In this document: one piece after another, positions 1 through 15,781 of the stretch
Layout of the letters: each line of letters starts with the position of its first letter
Numbering within the stretch: position 1 is the first letter of the stretch
From: an actinobacterium SCGC AAA278-O22
Lineage (GTDB): Bacteria; Actinomycetota; Actinomycetes; Nanopelagicales; Nanopelagicaceae
NCBI GenBank assembly: GCA_000372185.1
Contig: AQUA01000001.1
Coordinates: 1-64,000 of the forward strand
Length of the DNA stretch: 64,000 nt
Direction of reading: 5' to 3'
Notes under the pieces: generated by a model
Databases searched by the model: none
The model's input: only the letters and a program-made list of their open reading frames with translations
What the model was told of the DNA's origin: nothing
Program-made: the position numbers and the translations under genes

Positions 1-95
1 TTCCTTGTCATTAGCCCACAATTCTTTGCACGCTACAGCGCAGGTCTTGCGGTTCACCGCAACTATTTCCGCTGGGTTGAATATTCCATCTCTTC
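1..95. repeat. Left arm of perfect 95-bp inverted repeat (partner 9644-9738)
   Basis: Reverse complement of 1-95 is identical to 9644-9738 by direct reading; position 96 vs 9643 mismatches. Confidence 0.97.
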
Positions 96-528
96 TTCAG
101 TAATGATTGTTCTGATTGCACAAATCTGCGGAATCTCTGATGTGGCGGCCATTGTTTCGATCTTTGGAGTTAACGCTTCGATGATTCTCTTCGGATGGTT
201 GCAGGAGAAGTATGAAGAACCAGGAAATGGCGGGTGGCTGCCATTTATTTTTGGGTGCATTGCTGGAATTGTTCCGTGGCTTGCACTTGTCTTCTACATC
301 TTTGCTATTGGCGGTCCAGGAGATACTAAGGCACCAGCCTTTGTCTACGGAATCGTGATTTCACTCTTCGTTCTCTTTAATACATTTGCCGTTGTTCAGT
401 ACCTGCAATACAAGAAGGTTGGTAAGTGGTCTGAATATCTACGCGGTGAGAAGACTTACATCACGCTCTCGTTAGTAGCTAAATCTGCCCTTGCGTGGCA
501 GATCTTTGCCTCCACCTTGATTCAATAA
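1..528 (+). CDS. Heliorhodopsin, C-terminal part (5' end cut at window start / rearrangement)
   Basis: Frame 1 is open from base 1 (FLVISPQFFARYSAGLAVHRNYFRWVEYSISSSVMIVLIAQICG...LVAKSALAWQIFASTLIQ*). Heliorhodopsin-like, with the TM7 Lys in SLVAKSALAWQ. Overlaps the inverted N-terminal fragment at 9644-9972. Confidence 0.88.
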   Translation, partial: FLVISPQFFARYSAGLAVHRNYFRWVEYSISSSVMIVLIAQICGISDVAAIVSIFGVNASMILFGWLQEKYEEPGNGGWLPFIFGCIAGIVPWLALVFYIFAIGGPGDTKAPAFVYGIVISLFVLFNTFAVVQYLQYKKVGKWSEYLRGEKTYITLSLVAKSALAWQIFASTLIQ

Positions 529-555
529 CCTTTTGCAGGTTATCCTTATCGCATC

Positions 556-600
556 ATGAAGCTCCGCGGACTCCTCCTTATCCGCCGTAGCGAGGCCTAG
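556..600 (+). CDS. leuA leader peptide MKLRGLLLIRRSEA*
   Basis: Short ORF ATG AAG CTC CGC GGA CTC CTC CTT ATC CGC CGT AGC GAG GCC TAG with a Leu/Ile codon run, 110 nt upstream of leuA and followed by hairpins. Resembles actinobacterial LEU leader peptides. Confidence 0.8.
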   Translation: MKLRGLLLIRRSEA

Positions 601-2426
<1,826 letters not shown>

Positions 2427-2440
2427 CTATCGTACGCAGT

Positions 2441-3187
2441 ATGTCTGCGCCTCACACAAAGCTCTACCGCGATGAGGCAATCATTCTGCGCACACAAAAA
2501 CTAGGTGAAGCAGATCGCATCATTACTTTGCTCACCAAAGAACATGGTCGCGTCCGAGGTGTGGCAAAAGGAGTTCGTCGCACCATGTCGAAATTTGGGG
2601 CCCGCCTCGAACCTGGAAGCCATGTCGATATTCAGATGCACTCTGGAAAAACATTTGACACGATCACACAAGTCGAAGCGATAATGAATTATGGCGAAGC
2701 GCTCACTGATGATTATCAGCGGTGGACAATTGCTCACGCAATTCTTGAAACCGCCGAACGTTTTACCCAGCAAGAAGAAGAGCCCGCTCCACAAGAGTTC
2801 CAATTAGTTATCGGTGGCATGAAGGCACTTGCTGATAATCGATATGACTCATCCCTCATACTGGATGCATTTTTACTTCGCTCACTTTCCATCGGCGGAT
2901 ATGAACCCTCGATGACTTTGTGTTCACGTTGCGAGAAACCTGGTCCACATCGCTACTTTTCATTAGTGGGCGGTGGATCAGTCTGCATGGATTGTCGACC
3001 ATCGGCATCTGCAACCGCATCTGCTGAAGCGCTCGATTTAATGCAAGCGCTATTAGTTGGCGATTGGAATACCGCCGAGAAAAGTGAACCTCGCCATCGC
3101 CGAGAGGCTAGTAGTTTGGTAATTGCTTATCTACACTGGCACCTTGAACGCGGTTTAAGAAGTCTGCCGATGGTCGAGAGGGCTTAG
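2441..3187 (+). CDS. recO: DNA repair protein RecO
   Basis: YRDEAIILRTQKLGEADRIITLLTKEHGRVRGVAKG N-terminus; CSRC...CMDC zinc motif. Confidence 0.93.
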   Translation: MSAPHTKLYRDEAIILRTQKLGEADRIITLLTKEHGRVRGVAKGVRRTMSKFGARLEPGSHVDIQMHSGKTFDTITQVEAIMNYGEALTDDYQRWTIAHAILETAERFTQQEEEPAPQEFQLVIGGMKALADNRYDSSLILDAFLLRSLSIGGYEPSMTLCSRCEKPGPHRYFSLVGGGSVCMDCRPSASATASAEALDLMQALLVGDWNTAEKSEPRHRREASSLVIAYLHWHLERGLRSLPMVERA

Positions 3188-3197
3188 CTAGATATCT

Positions 3198-3908
3198 ATG
3201 GCAAAGAAGATTGAGATTCCCCAACACATCGCAATCGTGATGGATGGAAATGGACGATGGGCAAAAGAACGTGGTTTGCCGCGCACAGCTGGTCATCAAG
3301 CGGGGGAAAAGGTTCTCTTCGATATCGTCGAAGCGTGTATTGAATTTGGAGTGAAGGAAGTCAGTGCATACGCATTTTCAACTGAGAATTGGAAACGTAG
3401 CCCCGAAGAAGTGAAGTTTTTAATGGGCTACAGCCGCGAAATGCTGCGCACTCGCCGCGATCGCCTCAACGAAATGGGCGTCAAAATCAATTGGCTAGGA
3501 CGTCCTCAACGCCTCTGGAAATCAGTCATTGCTGAACTTGAGGAAGCAGAAGAACTGACGAAGAAGAATAAGAAACTTACCCTCAATATGTGCGTGAATT
3601 ATGGGGGCCGTGCAGAGATTGTTGATGCTGCAGCCGATCTTGCTCGTGATGTGAAGAGAGGCAAAGTGAAAGCCGATGCCATCACTGAAAAGACTTTAGA
3701 GAAATATCTATATTCTCCAAAGATGCGCGATGTCGATATGTTCTTACGTTCTTCAGGCGAACAGCGCACCAGCAACTTTTTGCCTTGGCAATCGTCTTAT
3801 GCGGAGTTTGTCTTCATGGATGTCTTATGGCCCGATATGACCCCAAAGCTATTGTGGAAAGCAATCGAGATTTATTCAGAGCGCGATCGTAGATTTGGAA
3901 GCGCTTGA
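3198..3908 (+). CDS. uppS: Isoprenyl transferase (undecaprenyl diphosphate synthase family)
   Basis: [46 protein letters not shown]. Confidence 0.95.
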
Positions 3909-3976
3909 CGCTTCCAAATTGATTAGATTGCGGAAGCGCTTGACGCTTCCAAATTGATTAGATTGCGGAAGCGCTT
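3897..3976. repeat. 35-bp tandem repeat (about 2.3 copies) spanning the uppS stop codon, each copy with a hairpin
   Basis: Unit ggaagcgcttgacgcttccaaattgattagattgc at 3897-3931 and 3932-3966, partial copy 3967-3976. Palindrome ggaagcg-cttga-cgcttcc. Confidence 0.95.
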
Positions 3977-4709
3977 AAAGAGAGGCTACGACGCCCCACA
4001 TAATGAAGACGCCGACAATTGTTGCAAAGAAAGTCCAGCGTGATGAATGGCGCGAATGTGCTTCGGGCAAGATATGCGACGTTGCAAGGTAGATAACAAA
4101 GCCTGAGAAAAGTGCGAGATAAAGCGCAAGTAACGAATCATTGAGTACTAGGTATGTACCAACGCTGGCCCCACCAATTCGCGCAATCGCATCGACACCT
4201 AGCAACATGTAACTAGTCTTCGTCCAATGTCCGCTCTTGACCATCAGCGAAACAGTATTAAGCCCGTCGCTAAATGCGTGAATAATTAGCGCAAGGAAGA
4301 CTGCGTAACCAAGTGCATGACTTACTTTGAAGGCAACACCCAATCCGACGCCATCGAGAAAGACATGGCCACCCATCGCAAGTGCTCCCAGTGAACCTGC
4401 GATGTTGTGGTGTTCGTGATCATGTCCGTAATCAGATTCAGCAGGTTCGTGACCACCGAATACGCCTTCAAGAATGTGAAGAGCTAAGAAACCAACAAGG
4501 ATGGCAAGAGAGACGGTTCGAATTCCACCTATAGATTCTGTGTTCATAGAAAATACTTCTGGAAGCAGATCAAAGCCAACAAGTCCCAAAAGTAACCCAG
4601 CAGATAATCCAAGAACGAGATGGAAGCGATCTGAAGATTTGAGAGCTACATAGCCACCGAAAGTGGTCGCAAGCACCGTGATTGCTGCGAAGACAATGGC
4701 CAGGTTCAT
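3975..4709 (-). CDS. ZIP family metal transporter
   Basis: Multi-TM protein with a His-rich loop (HDHEHHN) and HVFLDGVGLGVAF / HAFSDGLNTV ZIP motifs. Confidence 0.85.
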   Translation of the reverse strand: MNLAIVFAAITVLATTFGGYVALKSSDRFHLVLGLSAGLLLGLVGFDLLPEVFSMNTESIGGIRTVSLAILVGFLALHILEGVFGGHEPAESDYGHDHEHHNIAGSLGALAMGGHVFLDGVGLGVAFKVSHALGYAVFLALIIHAFSDGLNTVSLMVKSGHWTKTSYMLLGVDAIARIGGASVGTYLVLNDSLLALYLALFSGFVIYLATSHILPEAHSRHSSRWTFFATIVGVFIMWGVVASL

Positions 4710-4740
4710 AGCGCAAGGATATCGGCATTAGAGTTGTCTC

Positions 4741-5016
4741 ATGATTGCCATCGCCCGCTTTGAAGTGCAATTAGCTGAGACTGCGGCCTTCGAAAAAGAT
4801 ATTAAGGCCGCTTATGAGGCACTCGCTTCGTGTGCCGGATTTATTGATGGCGAATATGGCCAGAATCTTGATGACACCAATCTCTGGGTTCTTGTCACTC
4901 GTTGGGAAAATGTCGGTTCATACCGTCGCGCCCTCAGTGCGATGCGAACCAAATTGGAAGCAATTCCTTTACTGGCACGAGCAATTGATGAACCAGGGGC
5001 TTACGAGATAAACTAG
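4741..5016 (+). CDS. Antibiotic biosynthesis monooxygenase (ABM)-domain-like small protein
   Basis: 91 aa dimeric ferredoxin-like pattern (MIAIARFEV...ALASCAGFIDGEYGQNLDDTNLWVLVTRWENVGSYRRAL). Confidence 0.6.
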   Translation: MIAIARFEVQLAETAAFEKDIKAAYEALASCAGFIDGEYGQNLDDTNLWVLVTRWENVGSYRRALSAMRTKLEAIPLLARAIDEPGAYEIN

Positions 5017-5076
5017 CGCCATACGTGAGCAACGACCGTTGCTTTTCGCCGACAGCCAGCCGGATGGAGAAAAAAG

Positions 5077-6456
5077 ATGGCCGTAGACCGTTTAGAAAAT
5101 ATTGTTTCGCTCTCAAAGCGTCGTGGATTTGTATTTCCCTCATCAGAAATTTATGGAGGCCTGCGCGCTTCATGGGATTACGGCCCACTCGGAGTAGAAC
5201 TCAAAAACAACGTCAAGCGCCAATGGTGGAAATCCATGGTGATGGGTCGTGAAGATATTGTCGGTATTGATTCATCAGTTATTTTGGCGCGCGAAGTGTG
5301 GGAAGCATCAGGACACGTAGCTACATTTAGCGATCCGCTTACCGAATGTACGGCATGCCACAAGCGCTATCGCGCCGATCATCTTGAAGAAGCATATGAA
5401 GCAAAGCATGGAAAGAAGCTTGCATCTCTTGCAGAAATGAATTGCCCTGCGTGCGGCAATAAGGGTCAATTCACGACTCCCAAACAATTCTCTGGTCTGC
5501 TTAAGACTTTCCTTGGACCCGTCGAAGATGAATCAGGGCTTGCTTACCTGCGCCCCGAAACCGCGCAAGGAATCTTTATCAACTTCGATCAGGTGATGAC
5601 AACATCACGTAAGAAGCCACCATTTGGTATTGGCCAGATCGGAAAATCCTTCCGCAACGAAATCACACCAGGAAACTTCATTTTCCGTACTCGCGAATTC
5701 GAGCAGATGGAGATGGAATTCTTTGTGGTTCCAGGCACCGATGAAGAGTGGCACCAATACTGGATCGATACTCGACTAGCTTGGTATAAAGATCTTGGAA
5801 TCAATCCTGATCGCCTTCGTATTTATGATCATCCAAAAGAGAAGCTGTCGCACTATTCAAAGCGCACAGCCGATATTGAATACAAGTTTGAATTTAACGG
5901 AACTGAATGGGGCGAACTCGAAGGTATTGCAAACCGCACAGACTTTGACCTCAAAGCTCATTCGGCAGCTTCCGGTAAGGATCTTTCATACTTTGATCAA
6001 GAGAAGAATGAGCGCTGGACTCCTTACGTCATTGAACCTGCAGCAGGTGTAGATCGTTGCACCCTCACATTTATGATGGATGCATATTCCGAAGATGAAG
6101 CGCCAAACGCTAAGGGCGAAATGGAGAAGCGCGCAGTGATGAAATTTGATCATCGCTTGGCCCCTGTGAAGGCTGCAGTTCTTCCACTTTCACGTAACGC
6201 TGATCTTTCGCCAAAAGCGCGTGATCTTGCGGCGCAGTTACGCAAAAACTGGAATATCGATTTCGATGATTCAGGTGCGATCGGTCGTCGTTACCGCCGT
6301 CAAGATGAAATCGGTACTCCATATTGCATCACTATCGACTTCGAATCACTTGAAGATCAAGCAGTCACCATTCGTGACCGCGACACCATGGCGCAAGAAC
6401 GTATCGGAATCGATCAAGTAGAAGCATGGCTAGCACCACGTCTACTCGGCTGCTAG
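5077..6456 (+). CDS. glyS: Glycyl-tRNA synthetase
   Basis: Class II Gly[76 protein letters not shown]. Confidence 0.96.
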
Positions 6457-7592
6457 CTCCACTGCAGCTTCCTCTTAAAGATGGAACCCATCTCGTAGAT
6501 CCACCCGTAGTTCTTGCACCGATGGCAGGAATTACCAATGCATCTTTTCGTATGCTCTGCCGCGAACAAGGAGCAGGTCTCTTTGTATCTGAGATGGTGA
6601 CGGCGCGCGCGCTGTTAGAACGAATTCCTGAAACGATGCGCATGATTGAACCTGGCGCAGGTGAGTGGCCACGATCTGTGCAGTTGTATAGCGTCGACCC
6701 GCACCACATGGGTGAAGCGGTCAAGATGATTGGTCGTGAAAATTTAGCCGATCACATCGATATGAACTTTGGTTGTCCAGTGCCGAAGGTAACGCGCAAA
6801 GGTGGGGGAGCAGCACTTCCCTTTAAACGAAATCTCTTCCGCGAAATAGTTAAAGCAGCCGTTGATAATGCCAAGCCTTATGGAATTCCTGTCACCGTAA
6901 AGATGCGTATTGGTATCGATACTGATCACCACACATATTTGGAAGCAGCCAAGTCAGCTGCAGATTTAGGAGTTGCTTGGGTCGCTCTCCATGCGCGCAC
7001 AGCGCAACAGATGTATGAAGGAAAAGCTGATTGGTCTGCAATTAAAAATTTAGTAGAACACCTCAAACCAACAGGCGTTCCAGTGTTAGGCAATGGCGAT
7101 ATTTGGTCTGGTGCAGACGGCGCCGAAATGGTGCGCCAAACAGGATGTGCTGGTGTGGTTGTTGGGCGCGGATGCCTTGGTCGCCCATGGCTCTTTGCTG
7201 ATTTAGTTGATGCATTTAACGGTGGAAATAATCGAGTGCTCCCAACTCTGCACGAAGTTCGCGAAGTGATGTTCCGTCATGGTGAATTAATCGTTGATTA
7301 CTTCGAATCTGAAGATCGCGGTTGCCGCGACCTACGCAAACATATGGCTTGGTATCTCAAAGGTTTCCGAGTCCACTCTGAATTACGTCGCCAATTCGGA
7401 ATGGTGGGATCTCTCAAGGAACTTCGTTCGCTATTAGATCAGCTCGATGATCAGCCTTATCCAATTGAAGTAGGCGAAAAACCTCGCGGTCGCACTAGTA
7501 GTGGCCGTCCACCAACCCTGCCAGATGGATGGCTCAATGATCCTGACGAGATGATTCACCTTGATGTGGAAGATATGTTCTCGGGTGGTTAA
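6426..7592 (+). CDS. dusB: tRNA-dihydrouridine synthase
   Basis: [49 protein letters not shown]. Overlaps the glyS end by 31 bp. Confidence 0.93.
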
Positions 7593-8251
7593 TGTTTAAA
7601 TTAATTCGCCGAGTGATTTCTTTATTTGTTGCCATCATTATCATTATTCCAACATATGCGCTGTTTGTGACGTGGCACTCTGCCAAGAACCCAGGTTTTC
7701 GCACTTCTGCTGAAGTAATTGTGGTTCCGGGCGCTGCACAACTTAATGGCGCACCTGGTGATGTCTTACTCGCCCGTTTGGTTGAAGCAAAGCGAATTAA
7801 AGATAAAGGTTATGCACCTCTGATTATTACCGTTGGAGCTGGTGCCCCAGGAGATCGAACAACAGAAGCTGCTGCTGGCAAGTATTGGCTGACACATCAC
7901 GGTATTGCCAAAAGCAAAGTAGTTTCAATTCCCCAAGGTCGAGATACCTTGAGTCAGACTCAGGCATATATTAAAGAGATGCGCGCACGAAAGATTTACA
8001 ATGTCATCATCGCAACCGATGCATATCACTGTCAGCGCGCAATGACGATGGCAAATGATTTAGGTGCAGTCGCCACATGTTCACCTGTGCAGACTGGGCC
8101 AAATACTCTTCAAAATTCCCATCTGCGTTACTTAATTCGTGAAGCAGGTGCCTACTTGGCCTATATCTCACTCGGTCGCCGCGGGATTCATATCTCGGAC
8201 CATCTGACTAATAGTGGACTTGTAAGGTATGTACATGACTTCATCCAGTAA
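7592..8251 (+). CDS. DUF218/SanA-YdcF family membrane protein
   Basis: N-terminal TM; IVVPGAAQLNGAPGDVLLARL...ITVGAGAPGDRTTEAAAGKYWL...IPQGRDTLSQTQAY. Confidence 0.75.
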   Translation: MFKLIRRVISLFVAIIIIIPTYALFVTWHSAKNPGFRTSAEVIVVPGAAQLNGAPGDVLLARLVEAKRIKDKGYAPLIITVGAGAPGDRTTEAAAGKYWLTHHGIAKSKVVSIPQGRDTLSQTQAYIKEMRARKIYNVIIATDAYHCQRAMTMANDLGAVATCSPVQTGPNTLQNSHLRYLIREAGAYLAYISLGRRGIHISDHLTNSGLVRYVHDFIQ

Positions 8252-9464
8252 TTACAGCGCTTTTGATCAAGAGCGCTTTCTCGATGAACCAGCAAAGCGC
8301 CCAGGCCGCACCGAATTTATGCGCGATCGAGCACGCGTTATTCACTCAGCAGCGCTTCGCCGTTTAGCTGCGAAGACGCAAGTGGCAGTTCCTTGGGAGA
8401 ACGATTTCCAACGCACTCGCTTATCGCACTCACTTGAGTGTGCACAGATTGGTCGCGAACTTGGAGAATCACTTGGCGCAGATCCAGATCTGCTTGAAAC
8501 CGCATGTCTTTCACACGATATGGGTCATCCACCATTTGGTCACAATGGAGAGGAAGCTCTCGCTGAAGTAGCCGCGCCATGTGGTGGCTTTGAAGGTAAT
8601 GCACAATCATTTCGTTTACTTACTCGCATTGAAGCAAAGACAGTTGATGCACAAGGAAAGAGCTTAGGTCTTAATCTCACGCGTGCTTCTCTTGATGCAG
8701 CTACCAAGTATCCATGGGCTCGTGCAGAAAACCCTCGCAAGTTTGGTGTCTATGACGATGACACCGAAATTTTTCATTGGGTCCGCGAAGGTGCACCAGT
8801 TGGTCGAAAATGTCTTGAAGCGCAGATCATGGATTGGTCTGATGATTGTGCGTACTCAGTGCACGATTTAGAAGATGCCATCTTCGCTGGGCAGATTACG
8901 GTTAAGAACTTTGATAACGATTTCGACATTCTTTACAAAGAAATGGTCGAGGGTTATAAAAGTGATGCAACCAAGGAAGAAGCTGTTAGCGCTCTTACTC
9001 GCCTGCAATCTTTATCGTGCTGGCCGATTAATTTTGATCGTAGCCATCGCTCGCTCGCTCGCTTAAAAGATACGACATCACAATTAATTGGTCGATTTGT
9101 TCTGGCTGCCGAACTTGAAACTCGCAAAATCTACGGCGATGGTCCACTAACTCGCTATAACGCCAACCTAGAGATTCCACGCGATCAAAAGATCGAAGTA
9201 GATTTCCTCAAAGCAGTTGCAGGTCACTACTTAATTAATGCTGCTGCTTCACAAGAACGTTATGCAAAGCAGCAAGTGCTGATCCATGAATTGGTCGAGA
9301 TGCTCTTTGAAGCTGCTCCCAAGGAACTTGACCCGATCTTCGAAGATGATTGGAAGATGGCCACCAATGATTCAGAGCGCCTTCGCGTCGTTGTTGACCA
9401 GATTGCCAGCCTCACCGACCCCGGCGCATATGCGCTCCATGCGCACCTTTCAAAGCGTCGCTAA
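8229..9464 (+). CDS. dgt: Deoxyguanosinetriphosphate triphosphohydrolase-like protein
   Basis: HD-domain dGTPase: FMRDRARVIHSAALRRLAAKTQV; RTRLSHSLECAQIGRELG; CLSHDMGHPPFGHNGEEAL. Confidence 0.93.
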   Translation: MYMTSSSNYSAFDQERFLDEPAKRPGRTEFMRDRARVIHSAALRRLAAKTQVAVPWENDFQRTRLSHSLECAQIGRELGESLGADPDLLETACLSHDMGHPPFGHNGEEALAEVAAPCGGFEGNAQSFRLLTRIEAKTVDAQGKSLGLNLTRASLDAATKYPWARAENPRKFGVYDDDTEIFHWVREGAPVGRKCLEAQIMDWSDDCAYSVHDLEDAIFAGQITVKNFDNDFDILYKEMVEGYKSDATKEEAVSALTRLQSLSCWPINFDRSHRSLARLKDTTSQLIGRFVLAAELETRKIYGDGPLTRYNANLEIPRDQKIEVDFLKAVAGHYLINAAASQERYAKQQVLIHELVEMLFEAAPKELDPIFEDDWKMATNDSERLRVVVDQIASLTDPGAYALHAHLSKRR

Positions 9465-9473
9465 GGTAGGAAC

Positions 9474-9643
9474 ATGAGCGGTCGCATCAAGGCAGATGAC
9501 ATTGTTTATGTGCGCGAACATGCACATATCGATGAAGTAGTTACTGCAGCTGGTGTTGCTCTCAAAAGCGCTGGTGGGGGACAGAAGAAGGGCCTATGTC
9601 CTTTCCACGATGAGAAATCACCGTCCTTCCACGTCACACCATC
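9474..9643 (+). pseudogene. dnaG: DNA primase DnaG, 5' fragment only, truncated at the rearrangement junction
   Basis: MSGRIKADDIVYVREHAHIDEVV...KGLCPFHDEKSPSFHVTPS, the CHC2 zinc-finger start. It breaks off before the second CxxC and runs into antisense heliorhodopsin sequence. Confidence 0.88.
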
Positions 9644-9738
9644 GAAGAGATGGAATATTCAACCCAGCGGAAATAGTTGCGGTGAACCGCAAGACCTGCG
9701 CTGTAGCGTGCAAAGAATTGTGGGCTAATGACAAGGAA
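9644..9738. repeat. Right arm of perfect 95-bp inverted repeat (partner 1-95)
   Basis: Exact reverse complement of 1-95. Confidence 0.97.
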
Positions 9739-9972
9739 ATGGAAGAAGGCAGAAAGTCCCAAGAAGATTGCAACAGCTAATCCGACGGGAGTGTTGAGAA
9801 GAGTGATTGGTTCTGCAAATGTGCTTCCTGGAGGACCTGCCATATATCGGGCCACAATGGGAAGTGAGAAATCATTTGCAAGAATCAGAACAACCACCAT
9901 CTGTGCCAAGTGGAATAAGCCAGCAATGAGGTTGTAGCGACGAATACTGGATGCGTTTATCTCTTTAGCCAT
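9644..9972 (-). CDS. Heliorhodopsin, N-terminal part (truncated at the junction)
   Basis: MAKEINASSIRRYNLIAGLFHLAQMVVVLILANDFSLPIVARYMAGPPGSTFAEPITLLNTPVGLAVAIFLGLSAFFHF...RWVEYSISS. Joined through the 95-bp overlap with 1-528 it gives an intact 253-aa heliorhodopsin. Confidence 0.88.
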
Positions 9973-10008: not shown

Positions 10009-11328
10009 TTAGAGGACAGGCAAGTACTTATCTAATTCGTAGGCACTGACCTGACGACGATAGTCCTGCCACTCAGCGCGCTTATTACGTAGGAAGTAAT
10101 CAAATACATGCTCACCCAATGTCTCGCGGACTAGCTCGCTCTTTTCCATGACTTGGATTGCCTCTTCTAGATTTGATGGAAGCAATTGGTTATCCGTTGA
10201 TGGTTCAAGAACATATTTCTTCTCAATTCCCTTAAGTCCAGCTGCGACCATTACTGCGTAGGCAAGGTATGGATTGCAGGCAGAATCCGGAGAACGAAAT
10301 TCGATGCGCGTTGAATTCTCTTTATTGGGCTTATACATAGGAATACGCACAAGTGCGCCGCGATCATTGTGGCCCCAATTAATAATTGATGGAGCTTCTC
10401 CCCCACCTTGGAGGCGCTTATACGAATTAACCCACTGATTTGTAACTGCGGTGATTTCTGCAGCGTGCTTCAAGATTCCAGCAATAAATTGGCGACCCAC
10501 AGTTGAGAGATTGAGTTCGGCCTTATCGTCATAGAACGCATTCTTTTCGCCTTCAAAGAGTGAGACGTGAGTATGCATTCCAGAACCTGGGTGGTCGGTA
10601 AATGGCTTGGGCATAAAGGATGCATAGAAGCCTTGATTGAGAGCAACTTCCTTAATGACATGGCGGAAAGTCATGATGTTGTCTGCGGTGCTCAGCGCAT
10701 CTGCATAACGAAGATCAATCTCTTGCTGCCCAGGTGCACCTTCATGATGGCTAAATTCAACAGAGACGCCCATCGCTTCCAGCGAAGTAATCGCTTGGCG
10801 ACGGAAGTCATGGCCAACAACTGCTGGCGTGTGATCGAAGTAGCCACCTTGATCAACGGGAACTGGCGCGACACCTTTTTCAGGTTGTGATTTAAAGAGG
10901 AAGAATTCAATTTCCGGATGGGTGTAACAGGTGTAACCCATCTTGGCTGCCTTATCCAATGTACGGCGCAGAACATTGCGGGGATCGGCAGGAGATGCCT
11001 CACCGCTTGGCAGAGTAATGTCGCAAAACATGCGTGCAGCACCTTGTGCTTCAGCGCGCCACGGCAAGATAGTAAATGTTGCAGGATCTGGCTTAGCCAA
11101 CATATCGGATTCAAATTCGCGCGCAAATCCTTGAATCGCAGAACCATCGAAACCGATTCCTTCTTCAAAGGCGCTATCTAACTCAGCAGGTGCAATTGCT
11201 ACAGATTTCAGAGTTCCGAGAATGTCGGTAAACCATAAGCGGATAAACCGGATATCGCGTTCTTCAATCGTGCGAAGGACGAACTCTTGTTGCTTGCTGA
11301 TGTTCTCTGCTGGGGACATGCGCCCCAT
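10009..11328 (-). CDS. glnA: Type I glutamine synthetase, GlnA2-like
   Basis: RFIRLWFTDILGTLKSVAI; GFDGSAIQGFAREFESDM; KPFTDHPGSGMHTHVSL; NKENSTRIEFRSPD. C-terminus resembles actinobacterial GlnA2. Confidence 0.93.
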   Translation of the reverse strand: MGRMSPAENISKQQEFVLRTIEERDIRFIRLWFTDILGTLKSVAIAPAELDSAFEEGIGFDGSAIQGFAREFESDMLAKPDPATFTILPWRAEAQGAARMFCDITLPSGEASPADPRNVLRRTLDKAAKMGYTCYTHPEIEFFLFKSQPEKGVAPVPVDQGGYFDHTPAVVGHDFRRQAITSLEAMGVSVEFSHHEGAPGQQEIDLRYADALSTADNIMTFRHVIKEVALNQGFYASFMPKPFTDHPGSGMHTHVSLFEGEKNAFYDDKAELNLSTVGRQFIAGILKHAAEITAVTNQWVNSYKRLQGGGEAPSIINWGHNDRGALVRIPMYKPNKENSTRIEFRSPDSACNPYLAYAVMVAAGLKGIEKKYVLEPSTDNQLLPSNLEEAIQVMEKSELVRETLGEHVFDYFLRNKRAEWQDYRRQVSAYELDKYLPVL

Positions 11329-11394
11329 CGTGCCAAAGTGAAGTTACGGCAGTGTTACAGAACTAGATTTCTCGCCACTTGGAAGTCAATATCT

Positions 11395-13077
11395 TCAGAC
11401 TTCTCGCCAGCTCGAAGTCATTGGCAGGCGGCGATCCTTACCGAATGCACGCTTAGAAACCTTCGTGCCAGGCGGGTATTGGCGCCGCTTATATTCTGCC
11501 TTGTCGACCATCGCAATAACGCGCATGACCAACTCTTTATCAAAGCCCGCTGCAATAAGTGCATCGCGCCCTAAATCGTCATCGACATAAGCCTTCAAAA
11601 CTTTATCGAGGATTTCATATTCAGGAAGTGAATCTGAATCTTTCTGATCAGGTCGTAATTCAGCAGATGGCTCTTTAGTGATCGAACGTTCAGGAATTGG
11701 CGGGACTTCACCAGCTTCTGCAGCTGCCCGATTGCGCCAACGTGCCAGCGCCCAGACATCGGTCTTATAAATATCTTTAATCGGCGCATATCCACCGACT
11801 GCATCTCCATATAAGGTCGAATATCCGCAGGCCAATTCAGATTTATTTCCGGTAGCAAGAACAAGATGGCCATGCTGGTTGGAAAGTCCCATCAAGGTAG
11901 TTCCACGAACACGCGCCTGCAGATTTTCCTCAGCCAGCCCCGTGAGCTCTACCTGAGTGCGGAAGGCATCGACCATCTTCTGAATTTCTACAATACGAAA
12001 ACCGAGGCCGGTGTTCTTCGCCATCAACTCAGCATCCTCAATGGAGTGGCCAGATGAATATTTACTTGGCATAGCAACGCCATGAACTCGATCCGGGCCA
12101 AGGGCATCAATGGCAAGGGCTGCTACAAGTGCAGAATCAATTCCGCCAGAAAGCCCAACAAGTACTGACTTAAATCCATTTTTGCCCACGTAATCGCGCA
12201 AGCCAACAACGATGGCGTTCCACATCTCTTCTTCATCGCCCAGACGGTGTGCAATGCCGGGAACGAGTGGCTTGGCGATGTCAACAGAATCTTCGGAAAT
12301 AATCACATCGGGCTTAGAAGTTCCTGTTGCAACATCAACATCAACAACCATGACGCCATCTTCAAATTGAGGAGCACGCGCAATGACGGCACCGTCGCTA
12401 TTGACCACGATGCTGTCGCCATCAAAGACCAAATCATCTTGGCCGCCTGTCATATTGACATATGCAAGTGGGGCTTTGGCTTCGCGAGCGCGTTTGGTAA
12501 CAAGAGCAAGGCGCACATCATCTTTAGCGCGTTCATATGGAGATCCATTGGGAACAATGACAAGCCCTGGATTGCGCGCTGCCAATTGAGAAGTAATTCC
12601 TCCATCAATCCAGAGGTCTTCGCAGATGGCGATACCCACATCAACTCCATGGATGCGAACTACCAATGTGGAATCGCCTGCCACAAAATTGCGGAACTCA
12701 TCGAAGACTCCGTAATTAGGTAGGTGGCATTTGGCATAGCGCGCTTTGACTTCGCCGCCTGCAATAACTGCGACCATATTCTGTGGCTTGACCACACCAT
12801 CATCAGAAACGACCTGATCGAGGTAGCCAACAATCGAAACAATCTTGCTATCTAATTCAGAGGCGAGCGCAGTTAAAGCGGATTTACTGGCCACCTGAAA
12901 AGAGGGGCGTAGCGCTAAATCTTCTACGGGATACCCGGTCAGAACCATCTCGGGGAAAATTGCGATATGCGCACCTGCGCCCACAGCCTGATCTACCGAT
13001 TGCTTAATCAGCGCTGCATTACCCGCTAGGTCGCCGACCGTAGGGTTGACCTGCGCAAGCGCCAATCGCAACTTCAT
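11395..13077 (-). CDS. nadE: Glutamine-dependent NAD+ synthetase
   Basis: N-terminal nitrilase domain (FPEMVLTGYPVEDLALR, ICEDLW) plus C-terminal VGLSGGIDSALVAALA; GNKSELACGYSTLYGD. Confidence 0.95.
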   Translation of the reverse strand: MKLRLALAQVNPTVGDLAGNAALIKQSVDQAVGAGAHIAIFPEMVLTGYPVEDLALRPSFQVASKSALTALASELDSKIVSIVGYLDQVVSDDGVVKPQNMVAVIAGGEVKARYAKCHLPNYGVFDEFRNFVAGDSTLVVRIHGVDVGIAICEDLWIDGGITSQLAARNPGLVIVPNGSPYERAKDDVRLALVTKRAREAKAPLAYVNMTGGQDDLVFDGDSIVVNSDGAVIARAPQFEDGVMVVDVDVATGTSKPDVIISEDSVDIAKPLVPGIAHRLGDEEEMWNAIVVGLRDYVGKNGFKSVLVGLSGGIDSALVAALAIDALGPDRVHGVAMPSKYSSGHSIEDAELMAKNTGLGFRIVEIQKMVDAFRTQVELTGLAEENLQARVRGTTLMGLSNQHGHLVLATGNKSELACGYSTLYGDAVGGYAPIKDIYKTDVWALARWRNRAAAEAGEVPPIPERSITKEPSAELRPDQKDSDSLPEYEILDKVLKAYVDDDLGRDALIAAGFDKELVMRVIAMVDKAEYKRRQYPPGTKVSKRAFGKDRRLPMTSSWREV

Positions 13078-15253: not shown

Positions 15254-15478
15254 CTCTCAATCAAGAATTGAACTTTTTCGCCATGATTTCGGCGAGATGT
15301 GCCAGAAAAATAGTTATCGAAATTGCGAAACAGCACAAAAAAATATAAAAAATAATCTGCGACACGCACTGCAATTTTTCTCACAATGTAGTGGTAATTC
15401 TTTCAATATTCCGTCACACTTATCCACGAAACAGGTTTGGGTGACGGATCCGAACCCTTCCGATTAGGAGATAAACAC

Positions 15479-15781
15479 ATGGCTGCAGCTAAGAAATCTG
15501 CTCCAAAGAAGCGCCGTAAGAAGGCTGCTGCACCAGCAGCACCTAAGAAGCGTCGTAAGAAGGCAGCTGCAACAGCAGCTCCAAAGAAGCGCCGCAAGAA
15601 GGCAGCTGCTAAGAAGGCAGCTCCAAAGCGCCGTAAGAAGGCAGCTGCTAAGAAGGCAGCTCCAAAGCGTCGTAAGAAGGCAGCTGCTAAGAAGGCAGCT
15701 CCAAAGCGCCGTCGTAAGAAGGCAGCAGCTCCAGCAGCTGCTCCAAAGCGCCGCCGTCGTAAGAAGGCAGCAGCTAAGTAA
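15479..15781 (+). CDS. Lys/Arg/Ala-rich repeat protein, histone H1-like nucleoid protein
   Basis: RBS aggag then ATG at 15479. 100 aa of MAAAKKSAPKKRRKKAAAPAAPKKRRKKAAATAAPKKRRKKAAAKK...; in-frame repeats, followed by a strong terminator. Confidence 0.8.
   Translation: MAAAKKSAPKKRRKKAAAPAAPKKRRKKAAATAAPKKRRKKAAAKKAAPKRRKKAAAKKAAPKRRKKAAAKKAAPKRRRKKAAAPAAAPKRRRRKKAAAK

Follow-up and report, generated by a model that had tools for sequence, protein, structure and literature searches.

A probable amplification chimera splits heliorhodopsin and truncates dnaG near one end of an actinobacterial contig

The junction at 9643/9644–9648 of the DNA analyzed here is almost certainly a chimeric join, that is, an artifact absent from the chromosome, with MDA as the most likely source and with the heliorhodopsin (HeR) segment probably doubled by an assembly graph with k=95. 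The DNA is a stretch of 64,000 nucleotides (the window), which corresponds to positions 1–64000 of contig C1 in the 43-contig, 1.14-Mb, 75%-complete draft assembly G000 of a freshwater actinobacterium. The region is an ordinary glnA-heliorhodopsin-leuA...dgt-dnaG region, both genes affected by the junction being intact in the real chromosome. The junction matters as quality control only: a break should be introduced into the contig at 9643/9644, which avoids calling a heliorhodopsin in two fragments and a truncated dnaG.

Positions 1–95 of the window, which are the first bases of contig C1, are the exact reverse complement of positions 9644–9738 (95 of 95 bases), confirming the perfect inverted repeat proposed in the original prediction. 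The 64-kb window contains no other inverted repeat that reaches 25 bp, which excludes chance; the arms of this pair are separated by 9,548 nt. The first copy (1–95, plus strand) is a middle part of heliorhodopsin and lies in its native place and orientation relative to 96–9643, base 1 of the window being the physical end of the contig; the second copy (9644–9738, minus strand) is interpreted as a repeated output of one k=95 graph vertex. The genes leuA, recO, uppS, a ZIP transporter gene (minus strand), glyS, dus, a ydcF-like gene and dgt (711–9464, plus strand except for the ZIP transporter gene) form a block whose orientation in the contig is reversed with respect to 9644–64000. The genes glnA and nadE are located at 10009–13077 on the minus strand; in relatives, they lie upstream of heliorhodopsin on the same strand as this gene.

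The heliorhodopsin gene is represented by two pieces. Residues 1–109 are encoded by 9972–9644 on the minus strand (Pfam Heliorhodopsin profile PF18761, 5.1e-30), the coding stretch that rejoins window positions 1–528, where residues 79–253 are encoded on the plus strand (PF18761, 1.1e-75). The pieces cover profile positions 1–103 and 73–242, respectively, and both matches are well above the cut-off. Fused via the 95-bp overlap, they form a single open frame of 253 aa, in which the two matches together amount to a full-length PF18761 match. Both the open frame and the profile matches of the two pieces thus bear out the proposal that a gene for a 253-aa heliorhodopsin was split. At the start of C1, the HeR adjacency is intact across 95/96.

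The dnaG gene, which encodes the essential replicative primase, is cut at the same junction, as had been predicted. Its 5’ part (9474–9648, plus strand) encodes residues 1–58. The ORF starting at 9474 matches the DnaG zinc-ribbon profile PF01807 as far as the break and then runs into antisense HeR sequence; the dnaG sequence in the window ends after SPSFHVTPSK, the cut being at 9643/9648. The gene continues on the minus strand of contig C5, from 116252 down to 114553: the end of C5 is identical to window positions 9607–9648 (42 of 42 bases) and is followed by the rest of dnaG in frame. When the parts from the window and from C5 are fused, an intact DnaG of 611 aa is obtained, with the canonical zinc-ribbon (...SKNYYHCFGCG). 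The original prediction had named the 3’ part of dnaG just before base 1 as a sign of a real inversion; this part was found instead at the end of C5, in the same assembly. No dnaG pieces were found elsewhere in the assembly, beyond those on C1 and C5. A second copy of dnaG or of heliorhodopsin was considered and rejected, since none was found in the assembly.

The expected gene order was derived from 80 loci around close heliorhodopsin homologs. The order (nadE) glnA HeR is observed in the 35 of these loci that have a glnA neighbor. Fourteen related loci that are long enough show the order glnA-HeR-leuA-recO-uppS-ZIP(-)-glyS-dus-ydcF-dgt, and the start of dnaG comes next in 13 of the 14. Among the loci with this order are two on complete chromosomes, CP015603.1 (IMCC25003) and NZ_CP016774.1 (Ca. 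Planktophila versatilis). Intact glnA-HeR-leuA and dgt-dnaG neighborhoods had been anticipated in relatives, and they are present there. Compared with the glnA-heliorhodopsin-leuA...dgt-dnaG region of Planktophila-type (acI) actinobacteria, the contig has the same genes, and breaking the false join restores their conserved order, whereas in its deposited form the leuA-to-dnaG block is inverted with respect to glnA-nadE.

The junction itself was searched for in several collections. With probes of 600–700 bp, the restored HeR sequence was spanned in all 80 loci around heliorhodopsin homologs, the restored dnaG sequence in nine and the window junction in none. A 701-bp junction probe matched 123 of 135 same-genus genomes (G000 included), and, among the matches listed, the breakpoint (at about probe position 249) is crossed by G000 only. 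In single-contig genomes of the genus (for example, G001, G010, G131, G133 and G134) the probe halves map to different strands, at a distance of about 10–10.6 kb from each other; in G010 they are located at 1,214,837 (minus strand) and 1,225,201 (plus strand). A phage collection searched with the junction gave no match. Within G000, the probe matched only C1:9400–10100, C1:1–95 and the end of C5, and the reciprocal inversion junction was not found (both searches covered contigs C1–C16 and parts of C40–C41).

These results bear on the possibility that a segment of about 9.6 kb, from heliorhodopsin to dnaG, was genuinely inverted in the chromosome of the sampled cell. The deposited contig does read that way, but such an inversion is highly improbable. 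It would disrupt the essential dnaG, which has no second copy in the genome, and its junction occurs in none of the relatives searched (the 80 loci and the same-genus matches listed). Moreover, both ancestral adjacencies, that of HeR and that of dnaG, are present beside the new junction in one assembly, which is impossible after a simple inversion of a single haploid chromosome; to these adjacencies a single inverted junction is added, the reciprocal one being missing from the searched contigs. Coexistence of the ancestral adjacencies with the new one would be accounted for if the population were mixed or phase-variable, with part of the cells carrying the inverted segment. However, at the breakpoints the restored ancestral sequences have no more than 5 nt in common, with neither inverted repeats nor recombination sites at both ends; both breakpoints are inside coding sequence, one of the genes being essential, and of the two inversion junctions only one was observed. 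We therefore regard a mixed population as extremely improbable. It is also very improbable that, next to the ancestral arrangement, the cell truly had the leuA-dnaG segment a second time in inverted form or as part of a foldback duplication.

The structure of the breakpoint points to an amplification chimera. At this site, dnaG and reverse-complemented HeR have only GAAGA (9644–9648) in common; the predicted gaag microhomology is present, but it comprises five nucleotides rather than four. In the course of the amplification of the genome, which was most likely MDA on a single cell, a 3’ end would anneal via GAAGA to a strand located 9.5 kb from it. Extension in the opposite direction would then fuse HeR/glnA to inverted dnaG/dgt, and the assembler would follow the chimeric reads. 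The true order would be nadE-glnA-HeR-leuA-recO-uppS-ZIP-glyS-dus-ydcF-dgt-dnaG, with dnaG running on into contig C5. An assembler cannot use an overlap as short as the 5-nt GAAGA, so that chimeric reads were very probably present. We infer from the junction signatures and from the few long contigs at 75% completeness, which fit a single amplified genome, that G000 is such a genome.

The junction is similar to published MDA chimeras, of which 406 of 475 (85%) were inverted (Lasken and Stockwell 2007; PMC1855051). In that study, 337 of the 406 inverted chimeras linked segments less than 10 kb apart, and complementary bases were observed at the junction in 93.5% of these <10-kb inverted chimeras, extending up to 21 bp overall. 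The junction considered here shares with them the inverted join, arms less than 10 kb apart (9,548 nt), short complementarity (5 nt) and the presence of one junction only; the location of its halves on opposite strands in relatives corresponds to this inverted orientation. It differs in that the distance of 9.5 kb is near the top of the <10-kb class, and in that G000 is a probable rather than a known product of amplification.

A chimera could also have arisen from another source, such as library ligation, PCR or a purely computational misjoin, any of which can yield an inverted join; the continuation of dnaG on C5 and the intact loci of relatives fit such a source equally well. We nevertheless consider it unlikely. 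Five nucleotides fall far short of what a de Bruijn assembler needs for a join if there are no chimeric reads; the inverted geometry, the distance of less than 10 kb and the microhomology are those of the MDA spectrum (PMC1855051), and the overlap of 95 bp agrees with a single-cell pipeline described in the literature (PMC7490370).

An MDA chimera would explain the junction, and the best interpretation of the 95-bp repeat is a single vertex of a k=95 de Bruijn graph that was written twice. Adjacent edges in such a graph share 95 bases, so that an HeR segment ending at a fork would be output twice; contig C1 starts exactly 95 bases ahead of the fork after base 95. A JGI single-cell method uses SPAdes with the option --sc and k of 22, 55 and 95 (PMC7490370). 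As would be the case for SPAdes --sc with 95 as the largest k, the fork and the start of the contig carry the same 95 bases, and shorter overlaps are left unjoined: the further exact overlaps of contig ends, in the same set of contigs as above, measure 90 bp (C2/C12) and 42 bp (C1/C5), less than 95 in each case. In the published method, unlike in G000, where they are evidently untrimmed, contig ends are trimmed; for G000, we infer the use of MDA and k=95. A counter-point to the k=95 reading is that C5, if joined to the graph at the fork, would be predicted to have a 95-bp overlap, whereas 42 bp are seen; we read the C1/C5 overlap as a low-coverage dead end. The MDA-type inverted chimera (for the junction) and the k=95 overlap (for the 95-bp copy) both appear to contribute, and the chimeric join that the original prediction had favored is supported. 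A duplicated k-mer vertex can mimic a perfect biological inverted repeat.

The ends of C2 (133713–133802) and C12 (17494–17583) share exactly 90 bp, oriented in opposite directions. As an NlpC/P60-like frame stays open across this overlap, the two contigs are very probably adjacent on the chromosome.

Heliorhodopsin is found in at least two neighborhoods at similar protein identity: in the 80 loci (L086–L165), it is located beside glnA/leuA in 35, and about a dozen of the other loci contain a relative of the gene divergent to heliorhodopsin in L094, which we take to be DUF1801-like. The heliorhodopsin gene may have been relocated within the group.

Two further features of the window were observed. 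A 45-bp direct repeat with a 35-bp offset (tandem-like) is located at the end of uppS and beyond (3897–3976). At 15437–15781, a lysine/alanine-rich protein with KKAAAPKRRKK repeats is encoded by DNA that contains repeats with a period of 39 bp; it resembles actinobacterial histone-like tails.
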